Shown here: one piece after another, positions 34,079-51,548 of the stretch
Layout: each line of letters opens with the position of its first letter
Position numbering within the stretch: position 1 is the stretch's first letter
Assembly (NCBI GenBank): GCA_025352105.1
Contig: JANXUB010000136.1
Location: 1-64,000, forward strand
DNA length: 64,000 nucleotides
Direction: 5' to 3'
Source of the DNA: Burkholderiales bacterium
GTDB taxonomy: Bacteria; Pseudomonadota; Gammaproteobacteria; Burkholderiales; Casimicrobiaceae
Translations under genes and position numbers: made by a program
The notes under the pieces: model-generated
Seen by the model: only the letters and a program-made list of their open reading frames with translations
Databases searched by the model: none
What the model was told of the DNA's origin: nothing

Positions 34079-34891
34079 TTGCACGGGAACACAGATTGCG
34101 CTTTTGGCGCTATCGAACACGTTGAAAGCCACGGCGTCACAGCCGAAACAGTCTCAGGTCAAAACGCTGCGAACCAACGACAAGCTGCCGAGAATATTTG
34201 CGGGGCACCGCCTGATATTCCCAATCTAGTTTTTCGCCCAGAGAAGGGCGGCCACGACGAACGTATCGATTGGGTCACACAAGAGATAGCGAACGTAACC
34301 GACAGCCTGTTTAGCTTTGCCAAAAGGCGGCTGCGCAATGACACGCTCGCCGACGACGCCGTGCACGACACCATCGTCGCAGCGCTCGAGGCTGTGGATC
34401 GATTCGCCGCGCAGTCCAGCGTGAAGACCTGGTTGATTGGCATTCTCAAGCATAAGATTTCCGACTGCGAGCGCCGAACGGCGCGGGAAATTCCCATGCC
34501 GATGGTGTTTGCAGATTATTCGCTGACCGATCCCATCGAATCGACTGGCTGCGGCAATGACCTTGAGCAGGTGGAAATGATTACACCCGAGCGCACATTC
34601 GAAAGCAGGCAGCTCCTGGGTATTTGCGAACGCGCGCTGGCGGAGCTGCCACCGACAATGCGAGAAGTTTTTATGTTGCGCGTCGTACACGATTTGGGGG
34701 CGGATGAAACATGTCGGGAACTGGGCATTACACCTGCAAATCTATGGGTACTCCAGCATCGGGCCCGTACGCGATTGCGCGAAGACTTGTCAGCGTACGG
34801 CATTGAGTCGTCGTCGGCAAATCACAGAGCGACTGTCGGTCGCACTGGGTCAAGCCGCTGGAAGACGGCGCAATCCTCGGTCGAAAGCTGA
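34079..34891 (+). CDS. ECF-family RNA polymerase sigma factor (start uncertain; atypical N- and C-terminal extensions)
   Basis: FAKRRLRNDTLADDAVHDTIVAALEAVDRFAAQSSVKTWLIGILKHKISDCERR (region 2) and LAELPPTMREVFMLRVVHDLGADETCRELGITPANLWVLQHRARTRLREDL (region 4). Confidence 0.8.
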   Translation: MHGNTDCAFGAIEHVESHGVTAETVSGQNAANQRQAAENICGAPPDIPNLVFRPEKGGHDERIDWVTQEIANVTDSLFSFAKRRLRNDTLADDAVHDTIVAALEAVDRFAAQSSVKTWLIGILKHKISDCERRTAREIPMPMVFADYSLTDPIESTGCGNDLEQVEMITPERTFESRQLLGICERALAELPPTMREVFMLRVVHDLGADETCRELGITPANLWVLQHRARTRLREDLSAYGIESSSANHRATVGRTGSSRWKTAQSSVES

Positions 34892-37531: not shown

Positions 37532-38014
37532 GTGAAAAAAACTTCTCCTCAACGAATCATCGCCACAGTGGCTGTTGCGTGTTTGGGTATGGCCAGTGTC
37601 GCCTTCGCTGGCGAGTGTCCAGCAGGCCAAGCGGGCACCAACGCGCTGGCGGGTGCGCCAACCGCGCCCGTAGGCGTTACCGAGTCAGAGATCTCATCGA
37701 TTGATCTCGCCGCCGAAAACGTAAAGCTGGACAACCGCCGCCTGCGTTTGCGCAAGATGACCATCATGCCCGGTGGCATGGTGCCCCTGCACAGTCATGC
37801 TGATCGCCCAGCGCTCATCATGGTGAACGCAGGCGAGGTGATTGAAAACAGCAGCAAATGTCTGGTGCCTATCGTTCACAAGGTTGGCGATGTGTCCAAG
37901 GAGTTTTTAGGCACGATGCACTGGTGGACCAATAAGGGCAAGGTTCCCGTAATGCTGACCATTTCCGACATTGTCAACGACAAGAAGCCTGAGACGATGA
38001 TGGAGAAAATGTAG
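37532..38014 (+). CDS. Secreted cupin domain-containing protein
   Basis: Signal peptide (GTG start) and RLRKMTIMPGGMVPLHSHADRPALIMVNAGEVIE. Confidence 0.75.
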   Translation: MKKTSPQRIIATVAVACLGMASVAFAGECPAGQAGTNALAGAPTAPVGVTESEISSIDLAAENVKLDNRRLRLRKMTIMPGGMVPLHSHADRPALIMVNAGEVIENSSKCLVPIVHKVGDVSKEFLGTMHWWTNKGKVPVMLTISDIVNDKKPETMMEKM

Positions 38015-38016
38015 GT

Positions 38017-38180
38017 CTAGTGACTCGACACGCAAATTTTGGAACAAGAAAAGTGCCGAATTTGCGTGTCAGGCTAGGCGCAAAGCACAACAATAGCGGG
38101 CTATTGTGAGCATTTGCAACGACGCATGGCGCGCAAAGGCGGTGCTTTTACGTTTCAAAATTTGCGTGGCGAGACACTAG
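38017..38180. mobile_element. MITE-like 164-bp palindromic element flanked by CTAG (copy 2)
   Basis: Left CTAGTGACTCGACACGCAAATTTTGGAAC; right end reverse complement CTAGTGTCTCGCCACGCAAATTTTGAAAC; exact central palindrome ACAATAGC-GG-GCTATTGT. Confidence 0.65.
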
Positions 38181-38204
38181 CTTTCGCAGCTTCGACTTTC
38201 ACTT

Positions 38205-38234
38205 TGACCTGACCCGGAAAACCGGGTCAGGTCA
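38205..38234. promoter_or_regulatory. Perfect 13-bp-stem hairpin upstream of yeeE-like gene
   Basis: TGACCTGACCCGG-AAAA-CCGGGTCAGGTCA; no T-run on either side. Confidence 0.5.
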
Positions 38235-38250
38235 CTGCAATATTTCTGTC

Positions 38251-39216
38251 ATGTCAATCATTCTTTTACTGTGTGGCGTAGCGTTGGTTGCCACCATGGG
38301 CTATGCCGTTCAGCGCGGTGCAACTTGCACCGTGGCCGCGATGGACGAACTACTTCGCGACAGGCGCGCAACCCGAATGCTTGCTCTGCTGGAAGCGTCG
38401 ATGTGGGTGGCGGGCGGCCTGTTGATTGGGAACGCGCTCGGCTTGATGCCACCGATGCCAGCAGGCTACGCCATAACCGTGTGGACGATCGTGGGCGCTG
38501 CCGTATTGGGGCTTGGGGCTGCGGTGAACGGCGCCTGTGTGTTTGGCGCAGTCGCCAAATTCGGCTCGGGTAACTGGGTCTACGCGGCCACGCCGATAGG
38601 CTTTTATTTTGGCTGCGTCGTTGGGCAAGCGTCACTCGCCCACATGATTCCACAAAAATTGGCCCAATCGTCATGGGCTTTTCATACGCCGCCCTGGTTG
38701 GCGTTTGCGGTGGCAACCTTGATGGCATGGCGAATCTTACGGCCACTGTGGCGCACGTGGTACGGGCCCTCGGCGCAGCAGTCGCGTACGAGCGCGCTCA
38801 TTGGAAAAGTTTGGCAACCGCACGCGGCAACGCAAGTCATTGCGATCACTTTTCTTTTCACGCTCTGGCTGTTTGGCGCGTGGGCCTACACCGACGTATT
38901 AGCCGAGTGGGCGCGCGGACGGTTCACCAATACCGCCGAGCGTGGCTTGCTGCTCGTGGCTCTTTGGGCGGGTGCCGCCCTCGGTGGGTGGACGGCAGGT
39001 CGCTTTCGCTCCCAACGCGCTGACGTAGCAGGCGTTGTACGTTGCCTGCTTGGGGGAACACTGATGGGAGCAGGAAGCGTGCTCATCCCTGGCAGCAACG
39101 ACGGTCTGATTTTGACCGGCATTCCGCTCTTGTGGCCGCACGCGTGGGTGTCGCTCGCGGTGATGTGTGTGATGATCGCGATTTACCTGATGGTTGTCGC
39201 GAAAAAAACGTCTTAA
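38251..39216 (+). CDS. YeeE/YedE family (sulfur-compound transport-type) membrane protein
   Basis: Polytopic; QRGATCTVAAMDELL and GLGAAVNGACVFGAVAKFGSGNW motifs. Confidence 0.8.
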   Translation: MSIILLLCGVALVATMGYAVQRGATCTVAAMDELLRDRRATRMLALLEASMWVAGGLLIGNALGLMPPMPAGYAITVWTIVGAAVLGLGAAVNGACVFGAVAKFGSGNWVYAATPIGFYFGCVVGQASLAHMIPQKLAQSSWAFHTPPWLAFAVATLMAWRILRPLWRTWYGPSAQQSRTSALIGKVWQPHAATQVIAITFLFTLWLFGAWAYTDVLAEWARGRFTNTAERGLLLVALWAGAALGGWTAGRFRSQRADVAGVVRCLLGGTLMGAGSVLIPGSNDGLILTGIPLLWPHAWVSLAVMCVMIAIYLMVVAKKTS

Positions 39217-39231: not shown

Positions 39232-39420
39232 CTACCCCGCGTAGTGCTTCCAGGCATTGACGCTCTGTCTAATGAAATTTGCCTGCTCCTCAAAACGGAT
39301 GCAGTAATCGCAAATTTTCAGGTGCGCTGACAGCGCTATCTGCTCAGTAGTGGTCAAGTCGCGGTCCTGCCGCGCGGAAATGAGGGCCGCCGCTTTGCGG
39401 CAGGAGTCAGCGCTATTCAT
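39232..39420 (-). CDS. Anti-sigma factor, small zinc-finger (zf-HC2) protein
   Basis: MNSADSCRKAAALISARQDRDLTTTEQIALSAHLKICDYCIRFEEQ: C...HxxxCxxC arrangement; 4-nt overlap with the sigma gene. Confidence 0.8.
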   Translation of the reverse strand: MNSADSCRKAAALISARQDRDLTTTEQIALSAHLKICDYCIRFEEQANFIRQSVNAWKHYAG

Positions 39421-40234: not shown

Positions 40235-41107
40235 TCAGCATGGGCAAACCAGAGTCTTCAGAGCGCTCTCGTTCGTACGCAATAGCCCCAGGATTTCGCG
40301 GATAACCAGATCGGGTCGCTCCCAAAGCACGAAATGGTTTTCGTCCGGCAAGTGAATCACTTTAACAAAGGATTTCGGGGCCATTGATTCGACGACGTCA
40401 GGCGTGCGAGGATCGACGAGACGATCTTTGCCACCCTGCATCATTGCAAAAGGCACACGAAGCCGGCTCCATTCCAGATGCATGCGCCCAAGCTCAATAG
40501 ACAGCCCGAGCATCTCTTCATTTGCCAACAGCATTGATCGGGGCATAAAACTCTGCACGACACGCCAGCTGGCAACGGAGTTGTACCAACGAGGTGCCTC
40601 CAAAGACGCCGCGAGTGAACCTGCTATCGATAGCGCGGCACTGATCTTGTCTGCGTGATTGAGCGCCATCCAACCAGCCAGTGCCCCGCCCAGCGAATGG
40701 CCAACGACCAACGCCTTTTGTCCTCGCGGGATTAGCTCAGCGAACAGTCTGGCTTGAGCCCTTAAATCGGCCATAACTCGCCCAGCTTCAGAGCCGCCAA
40801 ATCCTGGTCGATCAACCGCAATTAATTTGGAAAATATTCTCAGCTCGGGCGCAGCCAGATAGTGCGTCCAGGCCTTCCAGTCGCCGGGTGAGCCATGAAT
40901 GAACATGAGCCAAGGCCTGGGCGGGTATCCGTCCGACGCGGGGGTCACCTCTGCCGTCTGAATGCGGAACGCACCGACAATGCGGGTACTCAGAACCGGC
41001 TTGATATCCCCGGAAAAAAGTGATTCAACATCGCCCCGCGGATAGACCGGATTCCACAGCTTTTCGAAGCGTTCACGCGTCGAATGAATGGCGCGGGTCA
41101 ATGGCAT
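40235..41107 (-). CDS. Alpha/beta hydrolase
   Basis: MFIHGSPGDWKAW (HG motif), VVGHSLGGALAGWMALNHADK (nucleophile elbow GHSLGG), catalytic His in LPDENHFVLWERPDLV. Confidence 0.88.
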   Translation of the reverse strand: MPLTRAIHSTRERFEKLWNPVYPRGDVESLFSGDIKPVLSTRIVGAFRIQTAEVTPASDGYPPRPWLMFIHGSPGDWKAWTHYLAAPELRIFSKLIAVDRPGFGGSEAGRVMADLRAQARLFAELIPRGQKALVVGHSLGGALAGWMALNHADKISAALSIAGSLAASLEAPRWYNSVASWRVVQSFMPRSMLLANEEMLGLSIELGRMHLEWSRLRVPFAMMQGGKDRLVDPRTPDVVESMAPKSFVKVIHLPDENHFVLWERPDLVIREILGLLRTNESALKTLVCPC

Positions 41108-41156: not shown

Positions 41157-41642
41157 CTATTTTGCAAAAAAACGGGAAATCAAGGGCAACCAGGCGTCGC
41201 GTCGAAGCCACAGGAGCAGCGCGCAACAAATCCATACGCCGCACGCGAGAAAGAACAGCTCTCCTCCGTCGCTGCTGCCATCGCCGTTACGAACAGCAAT
41301 GCCCAGCGGCGTAAACAAGTGAAAGAAAATTGCGCCGCTGATCACTGCCAGCCCGAGCAGCGATCCCAGCACCTGAATCAAGCGCTGCCGGGCGACGAAC
41401 GCGCCGACAATCAGAAGCGCGGATGCCACGAGCTCTGCCGAGCCGACCACCTTGGCCGAAAAGATTCCACCGGGCGCAAAGACACCGGGGAATCCCAGAG
41501 ACGCAGCCCAAGGATCCAGCTTGCCCTCGAAGATGTAGACCGTCTCCGGCGAGCCGGTGAACTTGAAGAAGAGCGATTGAATGAACACGAAGGCGACGAA
41601 ACCGGTGAGGAGCCAGTGCCCATGCTTTTTGATTGCGTCCAT
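41157..41642 (-). CDS. DoxX-like membrane protein
   Basis: Four-TM protein: GFVAFVFIQSLFFKFTGSPETVYIF...FSAKVVGSAELVASALLIVGAFVARQRLIQVLGSLLGLAVISGAIFFHLFTPLG. Confidence 0.75.
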   Translation of the reverse strand: MDAIKKHGHWLLTGFVAFVFIQSLFFKFTGSPETVYIFEGKLDPWAASLGFPGVFAPGGIFSAKVVGSAELVASALLIVGAFVARQRLIQVLGSLLGLAVISGAIFFHLFTPLGIAVRNGDGSSDGGELFFLACGVWICCALLLWLRRDAWLPLISRFFAK

Positions 41643-41684: not shown

Positions 41685-42149
41685 CTATTTGGCAATCAGG
41701 GCCGGAAATTTGCTATCTGCCAGTCTGTTGAAGCCCTGAACGTCCTTCTTCCACTCCTGCTGAATGTCAGCGTCGTAGTTCAGATAGAGCTTGCCGTCCT
41801 GCACCGTAAACTGCTCTGGATCAACCTTGACCAGGTTGCCGTTCGCGACGCCGTAAGCGCAGTAGCCGCCATACTGAGGCGCGTACTTCCCGGGGTTGCC
41901 ACGAAACAAGTCCAAGTTGCCTTGATTTGAAAACCTCCACTTCGCGTCTTTCCATTCAAAGACAAAGCTGTCGCTACCTTTGACTGGCTTCATCTGAGTG
42001 AAGTAGGCAACTGTGTCGTAACCGTTAATTGCCGTGTCTGTGCGCGAAGCAAAAAATGAGGCGTTCGTGAGGGTGTTGATCGCTGGAGCAGCGGAGGCGT
42101 GAGCTGTAAACATGACTATCGATGCAATGAAAACAGTACGGGCGAACAT
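41685..42149 (-). CDS. Secreted YHS domain-containing protein
   Basis: Signal peptide; INGYDTVAYFTQMKPVKGSDSFVFEWKDAKWRFSNQGNLDLFRGNPGKYAPQYGGYCAYGVA. Confidence 0.85.
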   Translation of the reverse strand: MFARTVFIASIVMFTAHASAAPAINTLTNASFFASRTDTAINGYDTVAYFTQMKPVKGSDSFVFEWKDAKWRFSNQGNLDLFRGNPGKYAPQYGGYCAYGVANGNLVKVDPEQFTVQDGKLYLNYDADIQQEWKKDVQGFNRLADSKFPALIAK

Positions 42150-42179
42150 GATTTGCAGAAATAGTGTTGATGAGCTTTA

Positions 42180-42206
42180 GACGATGAGCGTGCTGTTTTC
42201 CTTACA
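42180..42206 (-). promoter_or_regulatory. Candidate ECF promoter (TGTAAGGA-N15-CGTC) for YHS-DoxX-hydrolase-sigma genes
   Basis: Minus strand TGTAAGGA AAACAGCACGCTCAT CGTC, about 30 nt upstream of the YHS-gene ATG. Confidence 0.55.
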
Positions 42207-42260: not shown

Positions 42261-43370
42261 CTAAAACCAACGTTCGCCACGAGCAACGTCCTCGCGGAAT
42301 CGACGCCAAAGCACTAGCGGGGACGTCGTTGGAACGCCGTTCGCCGTGTTTTCCTTACCGATGGTGAATGCGAGCGACCATTGCTTAAACATTGCATGGT
42401 AGCCGACCAACAACGGCGTGTCGGGATGATAAATATGCGCGCTCTCAGCTGATACGCCGTTGAGCTCCATGACCTGAAGCCCCCGTCCTTCGCGAAAGTG
42501 ATTGACTGTCGGCGCTCGGAGATCGATGCGGCAAAATGAATACCCAGGCACCGCGTCCAAGAGTCGCGTCATCGCGCGCAGAAGCTCAGGCGTCGCGTGT
42601 CTATTTCCATCGAGGAAAACACTGCCGCGACTATGCGCTCCGATCTCGACCAGTTGAACGATAGACCCGCTATCCGGAATAGCGTGCAATTCATCGGCCC
42701 ATCGTTTGAACAGCATGGCTGAAATCAGCTTTGCTCTGGCGTCCCTCATGATGAGTTCGTGCAAAGTGCTAGCGCCGTCACCGACGACCCCTGGAAACGT
42801 CTTGTGCACGATCGACAGAATTTGCGGTGCTTTCGCTGCGGCGCTTCGCGCAACGAACACACCAAACTCCTCGCCATCAACGTAGCGTTGTACGACCACA
42901 TCGCCAGAGAATCTGGTCAGGTAGCTTTGTGCCGCATCGATATCTCTGGCGACCAACACACCTCGTCCCCTTTGGCCAACATCCGGCTTCAGCACGACGG
43001 GTAGGCCGACCTGCTCGACGAAGTCGAGCAGGCTCCGAATGCGATCACGGACCCGGCCCGTAGCGATCAGCACGAACGTGGCTACCAAATCTGGCGCGTT
43101 TGCTTGCAATGGATTCAGTGTGACGTGCTTGCGCTCGCCCGCCATGCCACCGTCGCCCAAAATTGGGTTGACGGCGGTGAAAGCCATCGGACTTCGGTGC
43201 TTGACTCCAAGCCAGCCGATCCACGCCACGATAGGCACGTAGTAAATCCACCAGGGCCAAAACTCCCAACGTTTTGCGCGGCCAAGCGCAATCGCCAGTT
43301 TCTCGCGAGGCTTTAGGTAGGCACTGGCATCGTCAGCGGCTGATTGCCACGGAAATCTGGCAGGACGCAT
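42261..43370 (-). CDS. ATP-grasp domain-containing protein
   Basis: VEQVGLPVVLKPDVGQRGRGVLVARDIDAAQSYLTRFSGDVVVQRYVDGEEFGVFVAR ... DLRAPTVNHFREGRGLQVMELNGVSAE. Confidence 0.8.
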   Translation of the reverse strand: MRPARFPWQSAADDASAYLKPREKLAIALGRAKRWEFWPWWIYYVPIVAWIGWLGVKHRSPMAFTAVNPILGDGGMAGERKHVTLNPLQANAPDLVATFVLIATGRVRDRIRSLLDFVEQVGLPVVLKPDVGQRGRGVLVARDIDAAQSYLTRFSGDVVVQRYVDGEEFGVFVARSAAAKAPQILSIVHKTFPGVVGDGASTLHELIMRDARAKLISAMLFKRWADELHAIPDSGSIVQLVEIGAHSRGSVFLDGNRHATPELLRAMTRLLDAVPGYSFCRIDLRAPTVNHFREGRGLQVMELNGVSAESAHIYHPDTPLLVGYHAMFKQWSLAFTIGKENTANGVPTTSPLVLWRRFREDVARGERWF

Positions 43371-43377
43371 CGTATTT

Positions 43378-43953
43378 TTACGCACCGATTGAATCCTGCT
43401 TACAGCGTTTGTCCTGCAGCCGATCATTGGCGACAGTCGCTGGTGCGCGCCCGAAATTCACCCCGAAACTTTTACCGTGTGCCGTGGCTAGCGCCTCCAA
43501 TAACGCAAAGTGATGAACGGTGTGACTCGCCAAAAAAATTAATTCGCGTGCAATTGTCGATTGGGTCGTAAGTTCTGTTTGTCCCGCGTGGCCAATGAGA
43601 AAACGAACATTTACATCTCGATCAAGCAGCGGCGCGATACTGCTACGAAGACTTTGCAAACTTGTCTGCAGAACACGCAGACGCCTTTGCGCAACGGCGC
43701 AATCGCGCTCCAGGCGGTGATCTCGAGCGCGAGCATCGTAATCAACAAGCGGCAATTGAGTGGCGCAATCGTTGGCGCGTAACGCAGGCAGCAGCGCTTC
43801 GTAGTGTTCTATGACGTGACGTAGATGCGGGCCAACGATGTCGGAATAGCTGCCCAGGCCCAGCGCGCTGAACCGGTCGGCGACTTCGTACGCCCGATCA
43901 AGCAGACTCATCGTGTACTCCAAAATCGCGTTCGACAAACTGCCAGAAATCAT
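43378..43953 (-). CDS. DinB-like four-helix protein
   Basis: YSDIVGPHLRHVIEHYEALLPAL...ARELIFLASHTVHHFALLEALATAHG: conserved His triad pattern; ATGA overlap with the upstream gene. Confidence 0.7.
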   Translation of the reverse strand: MISGSLSNAILEYTMSLLDRAYEVADRFSALGLGSYSDIVGPHLRHVIEHYEALLPALRANDCATQLPLVDYDARARDHRLERDCAVAQRRLRVLQTSLQSLRSSIAPLLDRDVNVRFLIGHAGQTELTTQSTIARELIFLASHTVHHFALLEALATAHGKSFGVNFGRAPATVANDRLQDKRCKQDSIGA

Positions 43954-44408
43954 GATTGCAAGACGCTGGCCTGGGTTCGCGATAGCAAAGCAGCGTACCC
44001 GGTGCAAAACAGAACATTGGGTACGACGCCTGGGGCTAGCGTCAACAGAAGGTGCTGAGTGTGAACCAGCGTATGCACAACAAGTAGCGTGCCATACGTA
44101 AACAGCAATCCGCCAAGGACAGCTCTCAGCGCGGCTACGCCGCTGCTGCGCTGTCCAAACAGGCGGCGCATCACGTACGTCCCGAAATAGGTGAGAAACG
44201 CGCTGGCACACCAGTGCGCACCTCCGATGCGCAAAGCCTGTATCGGCCCCTCGGACCAATTGGCCCATGTCGCCCACGCGCCGTATGCGGCAGCCCCAAG
44301 AACGGCACCGAACCAGGAGTCAGCTAACCGCCGGATCCGTTGGAGCATCGTCCTGCGCGCAGATCGAGGGGTCAGTAAATAAATTGAAACAGGAAGAGCC
44401 ACGTTCAA
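43950..44408 (-). CDS. Small polytopic membrane protein (start uncertain: TTG 44408 or ATG 44348)
   Basis: 152-aa ORF with four predicted hydrophobic stretches; stop overlaps the DinB-like start. Confidence 0.6.
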   Translation of the reverse strand: MNVALPVSIYLLTPRSARRTMLQRIRRLADSWFGAVLGAAAYGAWATWANWSEGPIQALRIGGAHWCASAFLTYFGTYVMRRLFGQRSSGVAALRAVLGGLLFTYGTLLVVHTLVHTQHLLLTLAPGVVPNVLFCTGYAALLSRTQASVLQS

Positions 44409-44439
44409 ATTCGGCGTACGTCAATGCACATTGACGTTG

Positions 44440-44465
44440 GTCGGATTGCCAGCCGATTCCTTACG
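44440..44465 (-). promoter_or_regulatory. Candidate ECF promoter (CGTAAGGA-N14-CGAC) for membrane protein-DinB-ATP-grasp genes
   Basis: Minus strand CGTAAGGA ATCGGCTGGCAATC CGAC, about 30-90 nt upstream of the candidate starts. Confidence 0.55.
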
Positions 44466-44539: not shown

Positions 44540-44565
44540 TGTAAGGATTTTCGGGCTTGGACGAC
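44540..44565 (+). promoter_or_regulatory. Candidate ECF promoter (TGTAAGGA-N14-CGAC) upstream of Met-rich gene 1
   Basis: TGTAAGGA TTTTCGGGCTTGGA CGACAAAG, 52 nt upstream of ATG 44618. Confidence 0.6.
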
Positions 44566-44617
44566 AAAGCTTTATCAGACACAAGCACTCTCCGCAAACT
44601 CAACACAGGATCAAACA

Positions 44618-44935
44618 ATGAAGTCTTTTAAACCGATACTTCTCGCTGCCGCATTGCTCGGCTCCGTCGGCGCGGCTGCGCCCGCAGCCGCACAATTTGG
44701 CGGTTCGTACGACAGTGAAAGCTGGAACCTGTACTACATGCAGTCGCTGCGTCCGTCCGCGGCCAAGATGGCCGCAACAGACAAGAAGAAGGTCATGGAC
44801 ATGGAGATGTCCATCCAGAAGATGCGAGCTGATCACACCATGACGATGATCAAGATGGACGCTGATCACAAAATGGCTATGGCCAAAATGCGCCGTGAAC
44901 TCCAGGAATTTATTGTCGGCAAGGGCGCGTTTTAG
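44618..44935 (+). CDS. Small secreted methionine-rich protein, tandem paralog 1
   Basis: MKSFKPILLAAALLGSVGAAAPAAAQFGG...KKKVMDMEMSIQKMRADHTMTMIKMDADHKMAMAKMRRELQEFIVGKGAF; signal peptide and about 12 Met in about 80 mature residues. Confidence 0.85.
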   Translation: MKSFKPILLAAALLGSVGAAAPAAAQFGGSYDSESWNLYYMQSLRPSAAKMAATDKKKVMDMEMSIQKMRADHTMTMIKMDADHKMAMAKMRRELQEFIVGKGAF

Positions 44936-44956
44936 CAAACGGCATTTTGCTGCTTT

Positions 44957-44982
44957 TGTAAGGAACGCAGACGTGCAGCGAC
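44957..44982 (+). promoter_or_regulatory. Candidate ECF promoter (TGTAAGGA-N14-CGAC) upstream of Met-rich gene 2
   Basis: TGTAAGGA ACGCAGACGTGCAG CGACAAAG; both boxes and spacing identical to the site at 44540. Confidence 0.6.
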
Positions 44983-45087
44983 AAAGTATCAGCGAGCGAG
45001 GGAACGACACGAACTGTAAGCGTGTTGCCGTCGCCCATTATGTCAAGAGGCAATTGCCTTTTTTGGTTAACACTTAGGGGATATGAA

Positions 45088-45405
45088 ATGAAACACTTCA
45101 AGCAAGCTCTGGCAGCAATCGTTTTGGCCGGAACTGTTGGCAGCGCCGCGCCAGCATTCGCTTACAACGACGCGCTCTACGGTAGCGATCAGTGGTCTCG
45201 CGAGTACATGGTTAACGTGCGCCCAATGGTTGCAAAGATGCCTATGGCCGACAAAAAGAAGGTCATGGACATGGAAATGGCGATCATGAAAATGGAAGCC
45301 GACCACAGCATGACCATGATGAAAATGGATGTCGATCACAAAATGGCTATGGCAAAAATGCGCCGTGAACTCGAAGAGTTCATCATCGGCAAAGGCGCGT
45401 TCTAG
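45088..45405 (+). CDS. Small secreted methionine-rich protein, tandem paralog 2
   Basis: MKHFKQALAAIVLAGTVGSAAPAFAYND...MPMADKKKVMDMEMAIMKMEADHSMTMMKMDVDHKMAMAKMRRELEEFIIGKGAF; about 16 Met in about 80 mature residues; same length as paralog 1. Confidence 0.85.
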   Translation: MKHFKQALAAIVLAGTVGSAAPAFAYNDALYGSDQWSREYMVNVRPMVAKMPMADKKKVMDMEMAIMKMEADHSMTMMKMDVDHKMAMAKMRRELEEFIIGKGAF

Positions 45406-50591: not shown

Positions 50592-51353
50592 CTACATGAC
50601 GCACGCCAAAGTCGCAGCCGCAACCGGATTTCCGCGTGCGTCTTCGGCGATGACATGCAGCAAACTTGACCCGCGACGCACTTCGCGGGGGACGCGGACC
50701 GTGGTGGTGAACGCACCCGACGCGTCGGCGGTGAGCGTGCCGTGAGCACGCACTACCGCGTCATGCTTGAGTGTTTCGCCTTTGTTCTCGCCGGCTTTTA
50801 CGGCTGTGACGAGGCCGTTTTCGGTCACGGCGTAGCGGAGACGAAGCGCCGGGTTTGCGTCGACCAATTTGCCGCTAAGCAGCAGGCCATCAGCCTGCCA
50901 CTGCGAGGCCAAACTGAATTTCGCCGATGACGGTACCGCTGAAGCCGAACCGCCACCGCGTGTCCAGCTGCGATCATCCTTACCGTTAACAAATACCTGC
51001 GGCGTATAGACGCCCGACGCGCCGCCGCTTCGTGCTAGCGTGGTTTGCCGTTGGGAAAATGCTGGCTGCGCGAATGCGTCTTTCCAGCCGATGTAATCCC
51101 AATAATCGACGTGAAATGCGAGCGGAATGACGTTTTTATCTTTCGCCCCACGCGTTTGCGCGACGGTTTGCGACAGCCATTGATCTGCAGGCGGGCAAGA
51201 GTTGCAGCCTTCCGATGTGTAGAGCTCGATAATCGTGGGAACGGCGGCTGAGCTGACCGTGGTGCAGGATTCGTTAGCTGCATTGGCCACCGACGCGGCC
51301 CCCAGCAGAGTAAGGGTGATGGACAGCACAGCGGGTTGCAAACGATTGATCAT
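50592..51353 (-). CDS. DUF1223 domain-containing secreted protein
   Basis: Signal peptide; IIELYTSEGCNSCPPADQWLSQ (CxxC), FHVDYWDYIGWKDAFA, YTPQVFVNGKDD. Confidence 0.85.
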   Translation of the reverse strand: MINRLQPAVLSITLTLLGAASVANAANESCTTVSSAAVPTIIELYTSEGCNSCPPADQWLSQTVAQTRGAKDKNVIPLAFHVDYWDYIGWKDAFAQPAFSQRQTTLARSGGASGVYTPQVFVNGKDDRSWTRGGGSASAVPSSAKFSLASQWQADGLLLSGKLVDANPALRLRYAVTENGLVTAVKAGENKGETLKHDAVVRAHGTLTADASGAFTTTVRVPREVRRGSSLLHVIAEDARGNPVAAATLACVM

Positions 51354-51548
51354 GACGACGCTCCTGAAGACGATTGTTTGGCATTGTCGCGCGTGAAGTG
51401 AAAGCCTTACACCGAGGCATGCGTGCACAGCTATGGGAGTTGCGTCAGGTGAGGCGCGTTGTCGCCCAAAGAAAAATTGCGTCTTGAGGCGGTGTGTTGC
51501 GAAATAAATGGCAGATCATGTCAGTTGCGAAGACTGGTTTTTTACTGT

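Follow-up and report, generated by a model that had tools for sequence, protein, structure and literature searches.

A tandem pair of methionine-rich proteins with ECF-type promoters, a candidate methionine sink restricted to one Burkholderiales genus

The stretch of DNA analysed here (the window) comprises 64,000 nucleotides of a 4.5-Mb draft genome that is 92.6% complete (G000). On its plus strand lie two adjacent ORFs, at 44618..44935 (copy 1) and 45088..45405 (copy 2), encoding proteins of 105 aa each that are 65% identical to one another. Both proteins carry a predicted signal peptide of 25 residues with AxA at its end, judged by eye, and the mature parts have 80 aa each. Methionine accounts for 12 residues (15.0%) of the mature part in copy 1 and for 16 (20.0%) in copy 2, and neither 105-aa protein contains a cysteine. 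Longer ORF starts (133 and 127 aa) were rejected: the copy 1 version overlaps its own -35 box, and homologues align from the 105-aa starts.

Each gene is preceded by an ECF-type promoter, TGTAAGGA-N14-CGACAAAG, at 44540..44569 (+) for copy 1 and at 44957..44986 (+) for copy 2, the latter beginning 22 nt past the copy 1 stop codon. Both matches are exact, and the draft genome holds no further exact match (reversed control: 0). The copies have different 14-nt spacers and different leaders, of 48 nt and 101 nt, so that only the two promoter boxes are identical. An earlier note on this DNA had claimed two adjacent 105-aa ORFs with signal peptides and Met-rich, Cys-free mature parts, each behind an identical box pair; the ORFs, their composition and the genome-wide count bear this out.

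The Neisseria sigma-E promoter has the -35 GTMAGBWTT, a spacer of 12–13 nt and the -10 CGTCTAAH (PMC2893595). Read in the same way, the copy 1 promoter is GTAAGGATT-N12-CGACAAAG and the copy 2 promoter is GTAAGGAAC-N12-CGACAAAG. With its 12-nt spacer, the copy 1 -35 GTAAGGATT is a full fit to GTMAGBWTT, and the copy 2 -35 departs from it at the last two bases. The -10 CGACAAAG shows two or three departures from CGTCTAAH in both copies. A literature search for TGTAAGGA together with an ECF sigma factor found nothing.

Allowing up to three mismatches, the window contained five matches to the motif where 0.37 were expected; in 100 shuffles the count always stayed below five. All five sites of the 64-kb window, of the form NGTAAGG-N14-16-CGWC, lie within 9.2 kb, each upstream of genes. 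A further site of this class, probably a divergent promoter (44436..44465, minus strand), reads CGTAAGGA-N14-CGACCAAC; it has three mismatches and identical spacing and faces a run of minus-strand genes. The run begins with a predicted small membrane protein without a Pfam match (43950..44408, -). It also includes an uncharacterised ORF that is DinB-like by eye only, with no Pfam or NCBIfam match (43378..44001, -), and an ATP-grasp ligase-like protein with RimK above the Pfam cut-off and a weak cyanophycin synthetase-like match (42261..43427, -).

The promoter of the YHS operon (42177..42206, -) reads TGTAAGGA-N15-CGTCTAA and begins 57 nt upstream of the ATG. Taken as GTAAGGAAA-N13-CGTCTAAA, its -10 CGTCTAAA agrees with CGTCTAAH at every position, with a spacer of 13, and its -35 departs from GTMAGBWTT at the last two bases. 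It precedes the gene of an exported YHS-domain protein (41685..42149, -; NF041384, E 3e-46, above cut-off), which is adjoined by that of a DoxX-like membrane protein (41157..41642, -; a weak DoxX_2 match below cut-off). An alpha/beta hydrolase lies at 40235..41107 (-). The remaining site (51382..51411, -), TGTAAGG-N15-CGACAATG, has two mismatches to the motif and ends 28 nt before the ATG of a probable regulon member, an exported DUF1223 protein with a CxxC motif (50592..51353, -; PF06764, E 2.7e-50). The same motif was found upstream of the DUF1223 orthologue in the sister genome G017.

On the minus strand, the YHS, DoxX-like and hydrolase genes are followed by the genes of an ECF sigma factor, P0003 (39417..39992, -; TIGR02943/PRK12520, above the NCBIfam cut-offs), and of a zinc-type (ZAS) anti-sigma factor of 62 aa (39232..39420, -), with an ATGA overlap between the two. 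The Met-rich pair is about 5 kb away. The anti-sigma factor, a small protein encoded downstream of the sigma gene, has the motif C7-X25-H33-X3-C37-X2-C40, which agrees with the ZAS pattern C-X23-26-H-X3-C-X2-C and has the same spacing as Neisseria NMB2145/MseR. Judged from sequence, this neighbouring pair is a candidate regulator that probably reads the Met-rich promoters of the window. Orthologues of P0003 with 69–75% identity occur in seven sister genomes. No close homologue of a P0003-type sigma factor was found in G016 and G017, though both carry TGTAAGG-N15-CGAC sites, and P0003 may therefore be the wrong reader of the boxes. Directly upstream of the P0003 gene there is no site of this class; the site lies only ahead of the YHS gene. 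The window holds a second ECF sigma gene of the same family at 34280-34891 (+), 5 kb away and 42% identical to P0003 in its product. Beside the ECF/ZAS pair, an exported cupin protein and a YeeE/YedE sulfur transporter are encoded at 37532-39216 (+), and no promoter of this class was seen upstream of them.

In sister genomes, boxes like those of the window precede the genes of a TVP38-FAD oxidoreductase (5 genomes), ArsS (4) and DUF1223 (G017), so the promoter class is genus-wide. Those ahead of the TVP38/TMEM64-FAD oxidoreductase fusion read TGTAAGG-N15/16-CGACAAAGCGC (loci L143, L144, L129, L132 and L133), and similar boxes lie ahead of the ArsS radical SAM genes. The fusion consists of VTT and Pyr_redox and is nearest to FAD-containing oxidoreductases and MerA. 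The boxes at these two gene types suggest an ECF regulon for which we found no description. We discarded a TGTAAGGA...CGTCC string within the sigma genes of sisters: it is coding sequence (CKE...TSS) and not a promoter.

A protein search found the Met-rich gene in 6 of 64 genomes of the bacterial family, all six within one Burkholderiales genus (n=17 genomes). GTDB contigs gave one match, in a Burkholderiales MAG. Profile searches of genomes from the order (n=399) and the class (n=369) yielded no member beyond that genus; weak order-level matches (E 0.003–0.007) were unrelated proteins. There were zero matches in Pfam, NCBIfam, the PDB (by sequence) and plasmids. By these searches, the pair belongs to a previously undescribed, genus-restricted protein family.

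The genes are real, given orthologues in five other genomes and a dN/dS of ~0.06 (dN 0.06, dS about 1.0) in the mature part of copy 2 compared with its syntenic G017 orthologue. By this estimate, the family evolves under strong purifying selection. In the tree, the split between copy 1 and copy 2 predates the divergence of G005. Eight Met/His positions are invariant across the family (M60, M62, M64, M69, H73, M77, H84 and M91), and the remaining Met positions are variable, with 10–16 Met per protein. The last five of the eight share one face of an ideal helix, with a face preference that is not significant (p 0.065). An AlphaFold2 model from three sequences predicted three helices (pLDDT 78, pTM 0.64); a fold search of the PDB with this model gave no match at E below 1.

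Neither Met-rich protein matches the MXKDX/MrpX family HMM (TIGR02953) in NCBIfam. Profile comparison of the two families with hhalign gave a probability of 10.8% across 8 columns, all of them within the signal peptide. The earlier note had suggested a distinct family and a profile search against MrpX and wider genomes. This search revealed no homology to a known family and members within one genus only, and because no homology to MxKDx/MrpX was found, we also count the family as distinct. Of the 399 order genomes, 46 encode TIGR02953 peptides. The window genome gave no match, and the sampled genus members gave a single weak one, in G015. An ECF16 promoter lies ahead of 5 of about 25 readable MxKDx cases (L166, L169, L172, L175 and L177). 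The likeness to MrpX is in regulation and, probably, in function; there is none in sequence. For the bufferin family DUF2282, there was likewise no Pfam match, and the Met-rich proteins have no Cys.

Upstream of the Met-rich orthologue in G005, G008, G009 and G010 lies TGTAAC-N16/17-CGAA. The Brucella BcrS ECF16 consensus is (T/C)GTAAC-N17-CGAA (PMC8315932), and the Caulobacter SigF promoter is GTAACC-N16-CGAA (PMC3511200). In Brucella, bcrXQP (a Met-rich peptide and MsrQP) is under ECF16 sigma control, is induced by HOCl and gives HOCl resistance (PMC8315932). NrsF (PF06532) is present in 7 of the 17 genus genomes, and the window genome, a 92.6% complete draft, had 0 matches. Of the seven NrsF-positive genomes, six (G005, G006, G007, G008, G010 and G019) carry the ECF16 motif ahead of sigF-nrsF; in G009 it was not seen there. 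The Met-rich gene of G010 is divergent from sigF-nrsF, with the motif pair about 32 bp apart, and in G005 and G019 a bufferin operon (DUF2282, MNIO, DUF2063, DoxX) is divergent from sigF-nrsF. In G006, the divergent gene encodes a secreted protein without a Pfam match (L084:4328-4789, -) and is followed by a DUF2063 gene; its product has W(S/G)GQY repeats resembling the N-terminus of the Met-rich family.

The ECF16 motif also lies 88–180 nt upstream of msrP in G005, G007, G008 and G010. This corresponds to four of the six NrsF-positive genomes having msrP, versus 0 of 10 NrsF-negative genomes (Fisher p 0.008). By motif, the ECF16 promoter is common to the Met-rich orthologue and msrP in G005, G008 and G010. 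The pattern alone showed no genome-wide enrichment over the reversed control; its evidential weight comes from its location upstream of the named genes. Going by the promoter motif shared with sigF-nrsF and msrP, the Met-rich protein in this genus belongs, together with MsrP, to the SigF regulon, like MrpX and BcrX elsewhere. Ahead of the G017 orthologue, neither class of promoter is clearly recognisable. The earlier description of the window promoters as ECF-like is supported. At L101 (G010) and L103 (G008), TIGR02943-type sigma genes have the ECF16-like motif TGTAAC-N17-CGAA upstream, a hint of cross-talk between these ECF classes.

As the earlier note had stated, no msrP lies in the window. 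The genome search that it had called for located msrP on another contig (G000:C123:1776-2729), and neither promoter class was found upstream of this gene or of msrP in G017. A second, weak msrP-like match (C52) fell below the family cut-off and was dismissed as a gene of molybdopterin-oxidoreductase type. The two msrA genes of the window genome have no motif sites nearby. The N-terminus of one of the two MsrA proteins (L015:1318-2025) resembles a signal peptide, and the genome may therefore have a periplasmic MsrA in addition to MsrP. In Azospira suillum, the Met-rich peptide MrpX and its reductase YedY1 are reportedly under one ECF regulon. By motif, the idea of an MrpX-like regulon holds for the sisters, in which the orthologue, sigF-nrsF and msrP share the ECF16 promoter, but not for the window genome, where neither promoter class precedes msrP and the draft lacks NrsF. 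The direct sigma/MrpX/MsrP parallel is thus with the sisters rather than with the window genome.

We consider it somewhat probable that these duplicated, genus-restricted Met/His-rich proteins, predicted to be exported and helical, act as an ECF-induced methionine sink under envelope or redox stress and are recycled by MsrP. Envelope or redox stress (HOCl-like oxidants) would inactivate the anti-sigma factor, and the freed ECF sigma would transcribe the Met-rich genes from their own promoters. Once exported, the proteins would present many exposed Met thioethers, which would be oxidised and so spare essential envelope proteins. MsrP would reduce the sulfoxides and recycle the sink, possibly along with an exported, periplasmic MsrA (C104). 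In the sister arrangement, the sigma factor would be SigF/NrsF (ECF16), with msrP within the regulon. In the window genome, NrsF is missing from the draft, and the promoters of the Met-rich genes resemble those of Neisseria sigma-E and are probably read by the ECF/ZAS pair. The YHS-DoxX-hydrolase operon, the ATP-grasp operon and DUF1223 would belong to this regulon alongside them. Counting against this reading are the lack of either promoter class at msrP in the window genome and in G017, the failure to find a P0003-type sigma factor in G016 and G017, the missing site directly ahead of the P0003 gene and the want of a clear promoter at the G017 orthologue. Eight invariant Met/His positions are also more than a pure sink would need, and SigF regulons respond to metals too and include copper-binding bufferins.

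Bufferins in SigF regulons and the conserved, fixed Met/His make copper binding the main rival. The proteins could be periplasmic Cu(I)/Ag(I) buffers whose conserved Met/His bind metal and whose induction is by a copper-responsive ECF factor, as with bufferins, which chelate copper (PMC12452194). The bufferin operon in the G005 SigF regulon and the invariant positions, five of them on one ideal-helix face, agree with this. We nevertheless regard a copper buffer as rather unlikely: the sister regulon contains msrP, total Met (10–16) and many Met positions vary, the helix-face preference is not significant, and no copper gene was seen among the neighbours of the pair.

An improbable alternative is that the Met is structural, in small helical envelope-stress chaperones or oligomers with a Spy/CpxP-like role, whose Met-rich surface would bind unfolded proteins. 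Such a role would leave the msrP link unexplained, and neither a Spy/LTXXQ Pfam match nor a fold match at E below 1 was found. The three predicted helices would suit it, but in a model built on three sequences; the fixed Met/His/Leu pattern and the strong purifying selection would suit it as well. That the identical boxes reflect chance or are a by-product of recent tandem duplication is very improbable. The genes are indeed tandem paralogues, but with merely 65% identity and a split that predates the G005 divergence by the tree. Motif-like strings do occur in coding DNA (e.g. CKELQITSS in sister sigma genes), yet there are only two exact matches genome-wide, their spacers and leaders differ, and the same box class lies ahead of conserved operons (TVP38-FAD oxidoreductase, ArsS, DUF1223) in sisters.

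Returning to the methionine sink, the proteins share small size, export (predicted here), Met-rich and Cys-free composition and ECF control with MrpX of Azospira suillum and BcrX of Brucella (MXKDX family, TIGR02953). MrpX and BcrX belong to SigF/NrsF regulons with MsrP-MsrQ, and the sister orthologues, by motif, share the ECF16 class with sigF-nrsF and msrP. In contrast to MrpX/BcrX, the Met-rich family has no sequence homology to them and no MxKDx repeats, and msrP is unlinked; the window genome moreover uses a different ECF class and has two copies with separate promoters.

Neisseria sigma-E controls msrAB, and its Haemophilus relative RpoE2 does so as well, along with a doxX operon, in response to HOCl (PMC7907618). 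The window resembles Neisseria sigma-E/MseR and Haemophilus RpoE2/HrsE in the ZAS Cys/His spacing, which is the same, in much of the promoter boxes and in the theme of oxidative stress at the envelope. In the Neisseria operon, doxX comes first and the sigma and anti-sigma genes come last; the window likewise has a same-strand DoxX-like gene before the sigma gene. Unlike those regulons, the window cluster has no msrAB, DUF692 or DUF2282, and contains YHS, hydrolase, ATP-grasp, DUF1223 and Met-rich genes. Bufferins (DUF2282 BufA and MNIO BufB; copper-chelating RiPPs under SigF) are likewise small exported products and in G005 belong to the same SigF regulon. However, they contain Cys and are MNIO-modified, whereas the Met-rich family has neither Cys nor an MNIO partner.

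It is possible, and we propose it with reserve, that Met-rich periplasmic antioxidant peptides evolved independently a second time, and that this second family joined a SigF/MsrP regulon in a genus nearly without MxKDx. In one lineage, both copies would have left the control of SigF/NrsF, the membrane-bound ECF16 system, for that of a cytoplasmic ECF system of the zinc-thiol (ZAS) type, with the sensor swapped and the effector kept. If true, Met-rich sink peptides arise repeatedly, not once, and would have to be found by composition and ECF promoter rather than by sequence homology. The sister genomes would provide a ready comparison of one effector under two sensors, membrane-bound NrsF versus cytoplasmic ZAS. 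Moreover, the question of copper versus oxidant in SigF regulons, which include bufferins and MsrP, would become testable with one small protein.
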